The position numbers were made by a program, and so were the translations under genes. DNA of 64,000 nt, from the NCBI GenBank assembly GCA_035561515.1, contig DATMXP010000028.1:1-64000 (forward strand). Direction: 5' to 3'. Source of the DNA: Terriglobales bacterium. Lineage in GTDB: Bacteria > Acidobacteriota > Terriglobia > Terriglobales > Acidobacteriaceae. The notes under the pieces were generated by a model that saw only the letters and a program-made list of their open reading frames with translations, did not search any database and had not been told where the DNA came from. Below, piece after piece: positions 690 through 48,323 of this stretch (position 1 is its first letter; each line of letters opens with the position of its first letter).

Positions 690-1834
690 CCCCAAAAGAA
701 CTCCGCCACATCCCCTGCTAACGCCACCGGTTCCTCCGCTGGCGCGAAGTGTCCGCCGCGTGGAAACACCGTCCAGCGCTGGACGTTATACAGACGCTCC
801 AGCAGCGACCGCGGAGGCTCGCCCTCCGGGACCTTCTCGTGCGCGAACACACCGAAGGCCGTTGGCGACCCCACGTACGTCGGCTCCACCGGGTGTCGCC
901 GATTGTCCCAGTAGTCGCGCATCGACGACGTAATCGTTTGCGTTACCCAGTAAAGCGTGAGCGTGGCGCAGAGGAAGTCGTCCGACGGCGTAACGTCGCT
1001 CCACGAATGCCACTTCTCGCCCACGTAGGCCGCCAGCCCCGCCGGTGAATCGTTCAGTCCATAGCCCACCGTCTGCGGCTTCGTCGACTGGATTGCGCTG
1101 TACCCCCGCTCCGTCGCATCCCAGCCCTGCCGCACCGCCAGGTACGCCCGCTCCGACTCCGAAAGGTCCGCGTCATTTACCTCCGGCGTGAGTTCCGGTG
1201 TCGTCAGGTGGATCCCGATCACCGACTCCGGATGGTCCAGCGCCAGGAACGTCGACACCCCTGCACCGAAATCACCGCCTCCCGCGCCATAACGGGAATA
1301 ACCGAGCTCGCTCATCAGCCTGTGCCAGCGCTCCGACACGTACCGGTAGTTGATGCCCACCTCCGCCGGACGAGGCGAGAATCCATATCCGGGCAGCGAG
1401 GGCACCACCACGTCGAAGTCCCCCAGCATCGGCAGCACGTCCACGTAATCCAGGAAGCTGCTCGGCCACCCGTGCGTCAGGATGAGCGGCACACCCCGCC
1501 CTGACTTCGCGCGCTGATGCACAAAGTGAATGCCCTCCCACCTGAAATGCTCCAGCCGGTTCAGTTTCCGTTCCCACGCGCGCCAGTCGAACTCGTCGGC
1601 CCAGTACCGCACCAGGTGCCGCAACCATTCGAGTTCCGTGCCCTGTTCCCAGCCGATGCCCGGTATCTGGTCGGGCCATCTCGTCCGCCGCAACCGCGTG
1701 CGCAAATCGTCGAGCACATCGTCCGCAACATGAATCTCAAACCGTTCCACTTTCACTCCCCGGTCACTCCCCGGTGCCGACCAACTTACACGAGAATTTC
1801 CCGTTCCGGGAAAAGTTATGTCAATGGGGTCCAA
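680..1834 (-). CDS. Epoxide hydrolase (EHN-type alpha/beta hydrolase)
   Basis: 384 residues as drawn from the ATG at 1834. The conserved region starts at about residue 29 (VERFEIHV), so a GTG at 1756 or 1750 is a plausible real start; a GGGGA lies just before the former. Residues 30-140 form the epoxide hydrolase N-terminal lid/anchor domain (RRTRWPDQIPG). Then comes the alpha/beta hydrolase core: oxyanion motif HGWP at 121-124, nucleophile Asp188 in GGGDFGAG, and the likely catalytic His362 in RGGHFAP. It should hydrolyse epoxides to diols in the cytoplasm; the substrate is unknown. No neighbour suggests a pathway. Family call is secure, start is not. Confidence 0.85.
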   Translation of the reverse strand: MDPIDITFPGTGNSRVSWSAPGSDRGVKVERFEIHVADDVLDDLRTRLRRTRWPDQIPGIGWEQGTELEWLRHLVRYWADEFDWRAWERKLNRLEHFRWEGIHFVHQRAKSGRGVPLILTHGWPSSFLDYVDVLPMLGDFDVVVPSLPGYGFSPRPAEVGINYRYVSERWHRLMSELGYSRYGAGGGDFGAGVSTFLALDHPESVIGIHLTTPELTPEVNDADLSESERAYLAVRQGWDATERGYSAIQSTKPQTVGYGLNDSPAGLAAYVGEKWHSWSDVTPSDDFLCATLTLYWVTQTITSSMRDYWDNRRHPVEPTYVGSPTAFGVFAHEKVPEGEPPRSLLERLYNVQRWTVFPRGGHFAPAEEPVALAGDVAEFFWGLR

Positions 1835-1848
1835 GCCCTTAAAAATTC

Positions 1849-1936
1849 GTAAGTCGCTGATTTAACGGCAAATATAAATTTCAGAATGGTGGCATGATGC
1901 CCCCACCCAAATTGCTATTCTGAAAATGTAGGTGGT
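1849..1936 (+). repeat. 88-base dispersed intergenic repeat, copy A
   Basis: This 88-base stretch recurs in reverse orientation at 48145-48232 with about 79 of 88 positions identical and no gaps. It holds a short palindrome GGCATGATGCC and an outer inverted repeat (TTTCAGAAT ... ATTCTGAAA), so it can fold into a stem. It carries no open frame. Both copies lie between genes, which fits a MITE-like or small structured element. Whether it is mobile or transcribed cannot be seen. Confidence 0.7.
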
Positions 1937-1944
1937 TTTCGTTC

Positions 1945-2072
1945 TTTGTCATTCTGAGTTCTGAGGCAAAGCCGAAGAACCCCTGTACTGGGGTTTTTGG
2001 GTTTGTCATTCTGAGTTCTGAGGCGTAGCCGAAGAACCTCTGTACTTGGGTTTTTTGGGTTTGTCATTCTGA
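1945..2072 (+). repeat. Tandem repeat, about 57-58 bases, two copies plus a partial third
   Basis: Copy one is 1945-2001, copy two 2002-2059 and a partial third starts at 2060. Each begins TTTGTCATTCTGAG, continues with GCCGAAGAACC, and ends with a G/T-rich tail. The copies differ at a few positions and by one base in length. No spacers or CRISPR architecture are present. The CATTCTGAG...GAAGAA pattern resembles intergenic repeats common in Acidobacteria genomes, from memory. Confidence 0.7.
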
Positions 2073-2190: not shown

Positions 2191-2337
2191 TAACTCCTTT
2201 GTTTTCATATATGCGTCGTGTAACTCATTTGTTTTCATATACAGATTCTCCATATATGAAAACAAAGGACTTATAAATCCTTTAGAATCATATATGTAGC
2301 GCCCAACGCACCTGTAACTGCTTTGTTTTCTTATATA
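2191..2337. repeat. AT-rich repeat cluster with a perfect 19-base inverted repeat
   Basis: Copies of TTTGTTTTCATATA with a TAACTC-like lead occur at 2191-2213, 2221-2241 and, slightly changed, 2315-2337. An inverted copy is at 2251-2269; bases 2195-2213 and 2251-2269 are perfect reverse complements over 19 bases. A further related piece (CCTTTAGAATCATATATG) is at 2279-2296, and a similar GATTCTAAAGGA string occurs near 48033. The segment is much richer in A/T than its surroundings. It precedes the M24 peptidase gene and could be a promoter/operator array or a repeat family. Confidence 0.6.
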
Positions 2338-2468
2338 ACGGCAAAACAGGGGGGGCCCCCTCCCAAACCTGCCTGACCACTACAGGTTGTGGTCCTCTTG
2401 ACATCGAAAGAATCCCATCCGCCGAGCCGGAATGATACAAATCTGAACCAGTAACCAGGAGCAGATTG

Positions 2469-47858: not shown

Positions 47859-48144
47859 CAGTGCCGTTTTTGGTGCCTTCCATTCTCTCGGCTTAAGATC
47901 CGGCCATTTGCAAAGGAGTAACCTGCACGTGATGCACAGTATTTATGCGGCAAGATACCCTACCCCCTCCCCCCTATCTCTCCTGACGTAATGGAATCAA
48001 TGACTTGCGTGTAGACTTTTGACCCGACGTTAGATTCTAAAGGACTTACATCTCAAGCTCTTCATTCCAGAACAGTTAGTCGATTCGGCATTTACCTTCC
48101 AGTTATCGTTTCTGTTTTAGAGTATGCGTCCCACACACGACTTC
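47859..48144. other. Intergenic region after citF
   Basis: About 285 bases with no gene. No strong terminator is seen for citF. A string GATTCTAAAGGACTTAC near 48033 resembles a piece of the AT-rich repeat cluster near 2278, so both repeat types of the first locus recur here. A C/T-rich stretch lies around 47960-47980. Confidence 0.4.
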
Positions 48145-48232
48145 ACCACCTACATTTTCAGGATAGCAAGTTGGCCGGGGGCATCATGCCAACATTCTGA
48201 GATTTATATTTGCCGTTAAATGAGGAACTTAC
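48145..48232 (-). repeat. 88-base dispersed intergenic repeat, copy B
   Basis: Reverse-complement copy of 1849-1936, about 90% identical over 88 bases and without gaps. It keeps the GGCATGATGCC core; its inner arms read GTTGGC/GCCAAC. It lies between citF and the 3' end of the TonB receptor gene. Confidence 0.7.
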
Positions 48233-48323
48233 GTGAAAACGGGGTGTGGGACCCCATTGACACACTCCTTCCCGAATCGGGACCGCGAAGCGCATGGGTA
48301 GCGACTGAACACGGCAATAAGAA

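Follow-up and report, generated by a model that had tools for sequence, protein, structure and literature searches.

The 88-base repeat found at 1849-1936 (+) and 48145-48232 (-) of the window (the whole stretch of 64,000 nucleotides that was analysed) is probably the core of a promoter cassette that is ancient, dispersed and transcribed into a short terminated RNA. According to this model, a control region of about 120 bp with several fixed boxes would end in an extended -10-like TGnTATnCT, transcription would start about 7 nt past this element, and it would stop at an intrinsic terminator 40-90 nt after the start, giving a tiny hairpin RNA. In related genomes the short RNA would serve as leader to either a PDDEXK_5 nuclease gene or a gene for a small basic protein, or stand alone, and read-through of the terminator would lead to expression of the gene, as in an attenuated leader. 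The genome to which the window belongs (hereafter the own genome) carries about 66 cassettes, none with either gene and most of them forming a composite with a G-run and arrayed 16-bp sites; such gene-less cassettes would probably yield short terminated RNAs, or act as decoys binding the same regulator.

A conserved unit of about 120 bp

The two copies lie on opposite strands and in intergenic DNA, as the sequence-only reading had placed them, and the identity of about 90% was confirmed: with a DNA query from copy 1, copy 2 came up as an ungapped match of 89 nt at 90% identity (E 2.2e-28). A whole-genome search, proposed earlier as a check, returned about 66 copies in the own genome, not just two, so that a chance resemblance can be dismissed. 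The DNA query from copy 1 gave 40 scored matches at E<=0.01, and a sequence profile of 120 nt (R1), trained on 30 own sequences and one each from the relatives G006, G026 and G031, gave 67 matches at E<=1 (66 at E<=8e-9). The set of own copies comprises 66 of these 67, the dropped match being the weakest, a 51-nt fragment. The 88 bases correspond to the 3' three quarters of the unit, but the conserved unit is wider (~120 bp), with a TGTCAA box about 30 nt upstream. In an alignment of 33 sequences the boxes follow each other in the order TGTCAA, GTAAGT..TGATT, AATATAAATTT, GTGGC..CCCC and the extended -10-like TGCTATTCTGAA; the TGTCAA box is invariant (33/33 aligned copies), and the 3' end of the unit lies about 15 nt past TGCTATTCT. 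The palindrome GGCATGATGCC is absent in relatives, which have GTGGC/GTGTC..ACCCC at its place. The elements of the two copies in the window are as follows.

1818..1936 (+): copy 1 of the promoter-like unit over its whole conserved length (R1 match, E 5e-30)
1819..1824 (+): TGTCAA box, copy 1 (alignment, read from sequence)
1870..1881 (+): AAATATAAATTT box, copy 1 (alignment)
1891..1901 (+): GGCATGATGCC palindrome of the sequence-only reading, copy 1 (sequence, alignment)
1913..1921 (+): extended -10-like element TGCTATTCT, copy 1 (alignment)
near 1928 (+): predicted transcription start, copy 1
48145..48263 (-): promoter-like unit, copy 2 (R1 match, E 5e-29)
48160..48168 (-): extended -10-like TGCTATCCT, copy 2 (sequence, alignment)

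The first 50 bp upstream of the TGTCAA box were mostly unrelated between copies (22/66 matched three or more others), and similarity on the 3' side was seen in 48/65 own copies, fading at 250-450 bp.

Age, constraint and distribution

The identity of the two copies had earlier been taken to indicate recent spread or strong constraint, as for a MITE or a structured RNA. A dispersed and strongly constrained family is what remains of that interpretation; recent spread, a MITE and a structured RNA within the 88 bases were not supported. The own genome holds 66 copies, whose conservation profile is common to other genera: the per-column information of own copies was correlated with that of relatives over 119 columns (Spearman 0.62), a value reached by 0 of 109 circular shifts of the profile (best shift 0.24). 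The mean pairwise identity of 64 own copies was 0.72, exceeding 0.95 in 5 of 2016 pairs, which argues against recent spread; within three relatives the mean was 0.58-0.69. The conservation pattern of the unit thus points to function and not to recent spread.

At E<=0.01, R1 matched at least 154 of 300 genomes of the own family (own genome included; 12 candidates per genome scored), and the positive genomes spanned at least 55 of 79 genera. Class-wide, at E<=0.001, 37 of 299 genomes matched, of which 32 belonged to the own family and 5 to one other family. A single DNA sequence used as query matched only 3 of 60 relatives, all of those listed being from other genera than the own one. An exact 28-mer of the own type had 0 matches in GTDB contigs, from which the own genome may be left out. 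Two exact patterns of the unit had 0 matches in viral contigs, and a phage origin of the unit was rejected on this result.

At a syntenic locus with the small basic gene described below, or with its neighbour, one unit was found in 15 genomes from 8 genera (G006, G199, G146, G321, G188, G311, G317, G170, G262, G099, G187, G168, G098, G021 and G031), so that at least that copy has been inherited and kept. A search of the own genome for the phosphatase that marks this locus in relatives found none. The best supported reading is that the cassette is old and ancestral to the bacterial family. Units also occur in tandem in relatives, on one strand and with starts about 155-215 bp apart.

G098, C1:294026/294183, C1:181651/181814 and C2:528510/528663 (one strand): tandem units
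G031, C1:1268972/1269186 (one strand): tandem units

Promoter-like features and downstream terminators

A set of 56 loci from 29 genomes was used for comparison with relatives. An extended -10 motif (TGnTATnnT-like) was found at a fixed position, with TGCTATTCT or a close variant in 58/66 own units and 52/56 relatives' units. No -35 element was found at the usual distance, and the unit was missed by a simple sigma-70 scan; the scan found no standard -35/-10 pair, and the spacing in the alignment does not fit a sigma-54 promoter. By crude ORF calls, the downstream neighbour gene was on the same strand in 18/45 and on the opposite strand in 27/45 own copies, so that the latter units are not promoters of the next gene, and 10/66 own units overlapped a called ORF. 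Driving neighbouring genes is thus not the cassette's main role.

Intrinsic-terminator-like sites were found, under a strict rule, from -5 to +105 of the unit end at 27/55 relatives' loci (control windows under the same rule: 0-2 of 53-56 in each of 11). A same-strand intrinsic terminator at short distance is expected of a short terminated RNA or attenuated leader, and these loci of relatives have such a site. Only 8/64 own copies passed the strict test (controls 0-2). At 30/55 relatives' loci the first 44 nt contained a stem exceeding 95% of shuffles in strength, and 33/65 own copies had a stem stronger than shuffles. The letters of the hairpin after the unit vary from locus to locus in relatives, which means that the hairpin is conserved and its sequence is not. 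For 17 mixed leaders aligned together, RNAalifold gave no consensus pairs, presumably because hairpins that are unrelated fail to line up, and the terminator count was used in its place. We read these results as RNA-like structure lying just 3' of the unit, in its putative transcript, and the unit itself as a promoter cassette giving a short terminated RNA, whose transcription we infer.

The hairpin and terminator of copy 1 are repeat-derived, and no terminator was found downstream of copy 2. In many own copies a GGTGGTGAAGACG..CGTCTCACCACC hairpin sits exactly at the predicted start (in L020 with a z-score of -4.25), and diverged own copies have a plain architecture; C18:121935, one of them, shows a GC-rich hairpin together with a T-run. 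Repeats of the type TCATTCTGAGTTCTGAGGC..GAAGAACC form the hairpin after many units, replacing the GGTGGTGAAGACG hairpin.

1975..1998 (+): terminator-like hairpin, then T-run, after copy 1
1949..2067 (+): pair of TCATTCTGAGTTCTGAGGC..CGAAGAACC repeats, with no others in the window

Genes that follow the unit in relatives

A PDDEXK_5-like (I-Ssp6803I-like) ORF was located 3' of the unit, on the same strand, at 23/56 relatives' loci, and a small basic ORF at 12/56, counts that are not independent because the protein profiles were partly built from these loci; the placement is informative, as neither family was ever found in any other placement relative to the unit at the 56 loci. Of eight typed proteins searched against Pfam, four matched PF11645 (E 4e-12 to 1e-22), while the small basic proteins had no Pfam match above the cut-off, and the nuclease alignment matched 2ost (E 5e-23), which we take to be I-Ssp6803I. 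PF11645 matches numbered 21 in each of G006 and G098, with none in the own genome and none in G031; control genomes gave no match in one search, and G006 and G098 matched in another. The multiplication of I-Ssp6803I-like nucleases in G006 and G098 is unusual.

Among 30 of the 42 PF11645 loci of these two genomes, the unit was found by R1 at 17, and all 21 R1 hits at those loci were upstream and on the strand of the gene. R1 had been trained on one G006 sequence, from a non-nuclease locus, and on none from G098. Degenerate units were recognized by eye at L157 and L139, among the other 13 loci. The small basic family at L043, L045, L051, L052, L059, L061, L066 and L070 follows the unit in conserved surroundings, and was present as one copy each in 3/5 genomes searched.

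Neither PDDEXK_5 nor the small basic protein was found in the own genome, at any of the 66 loci or genome-wide. Draft contigs break inside the composites described below (21/66 copies), so gene-bearing own copies could be missing. The best supported reading is that the unit has multiplied without genes in the own genome.

Relation to mobile elements

The cassette could alternatively be a non-autonomous mobile element (MITE-, REPIN- or IS200-type) with copies carrying a promoter and hairpin, spread via a tyrosine transposase or PDDEXK_5 nucleases and now partly lost. This is rather unlikely, although it would fit the 66 copies in unrelated intergenic places with 3' similarity over 250-450 bp, and the tandem units in relatives. 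Against it, the terminal inverted repeats of a MITE were lacking (2/36 copies, 0.9 expected), and no inverted pair joins both ends of either composite in the window. GTAG precedes the palindrome-bearing stretch in 50/58 own copies, in favour of mobility, but in only 10/52 relatives' loci. Proximity of Y1 transposase hits to units (3/7 within 1.1 kb) also speaks for such an element, whereas none of the seven is flanked by units on both sides, and the arrangement of REP/REPIN systems, in which a GTAG tag and palindrome flank a RAYT gene, was not found. Furthermore, the copies are old and constrained box by box, one is syntenic across 8 genera, and the two exact patterns are without matches in viral contigs. 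The three Y1 hits near units, listed here, may be due to chance or be a trace of mobility.

G000:C13:625-945: Y1 transposase hit near a unit
C1:58378-58677: Y1 transposase hit near a unit
C16:21380-21628: Y1 transposase hit near a unit

Composites of the own genome

Most own copies have, 3' of the unit, arrayed AAGTnCTTTGTTTTCA sites and a G-run. In the own genome 138 array sites were counted, and the reversed pattern was absent; 60/66 own copies have one or more within 1500 nt, and 78 of the 100 sites listed are at most 600 nt 3' of a unit, with 14 of the rest at contig ends. A G-run was present within 560 nt in 36/45 own copies far from contig ends, compared to 1/220 control windows. Altogether, 21/66 copies were within 600 bp of a contig end, which was always on the 3' side. 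The G-run of copy 1 is degenerate (a G-run, then a C-run) and was left out of the G-run pattern count. Half-sites of AAGTnCTTTGTTTTCA are arranged in direct and inverted order.

2192..2331 (2192 +, 2222 +, 2257 -, 2316 +): array of all four AAGTnCTTTGTTTTCA sites of the window (0.07 expected by chance)
2349..2355 (+): G-run, far end of the copy-1 composite (read from sequence)
47992..48006 (-): AAGTCATTGATTCCA array site following copy 2, with no other in the window
47960..47975 (-): G-run ending the copy-2 composite, approximate ends

The near restriction of array sites to units and the enrichment of the G-run, together with a similar GTAAGT..TGATT site within the unit itself, could also suggest a DNA-binding platform, in which unit, half-site array and G-run form a chromosome-organising or regulator-titrating site and transcription is incidental. 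We consider this improbable, as array and G-run are rare near relatives' units, where the terminator and genes are kept instead.

That the 88 bases are themselves a structured RNA (a riboswitch or sRNA body) folding around GGCATGATGCC is very improbable: in copy 1, TTTCAGAAT and ATTCTGAAA can pair around the palindrome, but only weakly and no better than shuffles (z -1.27), while copy 2, for which the same fold had been claimed, is without that pairing and folds worse than shuffles (z +1.22), and the consensus fold of 33 sequences reached only -3.6 kcal/mol with 12 pairs. Single copies thus fold like shuffles and no fold is conserved within the 88 bases. Rfam 15 gave 0 matches at the gathering score in the window and 0 in 20 loci; three sub-threshold hits, to microRNA or streptococcal families, were rejected as implausible.

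Implications of the proposed promoter cassette

Read as a promoter cassette, an anonymous repeat becomes a testable control element that occurs in roughly every second genome sampled from one acidobacterial family and is linked to nucleases of a family with up to 21 copies per genome. R1 is a ready profile for tracing the regulator and the RNAs, and the composites explain many contig breaks in the draft genome (21/66 copies). It is conceivable, as a long shot, that one family-wide regulator acts on a single multi-box promoter and commands a regulon that joins stand-alone PDDEXK_5 nucleases with tiny terminated RNAs by the dozen, with each RNA serving (by control or targeting) the nuclease after it, and that in the own genome the nucleases have been lost and the RNA genes multiplied.

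Comparison with known systems

No description of the unit was found in the literature searched, including passages of PMC3733652, PMC12306157 and PMC5900883. For Koribacter versatilis, PMC3733652 describes three tyrosine transposase genes of the REP/REPIN kind, one of them with a repeated TIR family. Like REP/REPIN and TIR families of tyrosine transposases, own copies are intergenic, have a palindromic 3' part and mostly carry GTAG, but the GTAG and the palindrome sequence are not retained in relatives, and its conserved part is promoter-like, not palindromic. The relatives' genes 3' of the unit belong to the PDDEXK_5 / I-Ssp6803I-type endonucleases (PF11645; 2ost), although in two genomes their matches reach 21 per genome.

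Leaders or attenuators with a premature intrinsic terminator are of a generally known kind, and relatives similarly have a promoter-like unit, a short stretch, a terminator and a same-strand ORF. The unit differs in that no common RNA sensor was seen, and in that the own genome is without such a gene after it. Dispersed or 'putative mobile' promoters of prokaryotes are likewise a known concept, and share with the unit a promoter-sized intergenic sequence present in many copies at unrelated loci. Compared with these, the unit (120 bp, several boxes) is longer and better conserved; it is also old, not a product of recent spread, and is tied to a terminator and a nuclease family.
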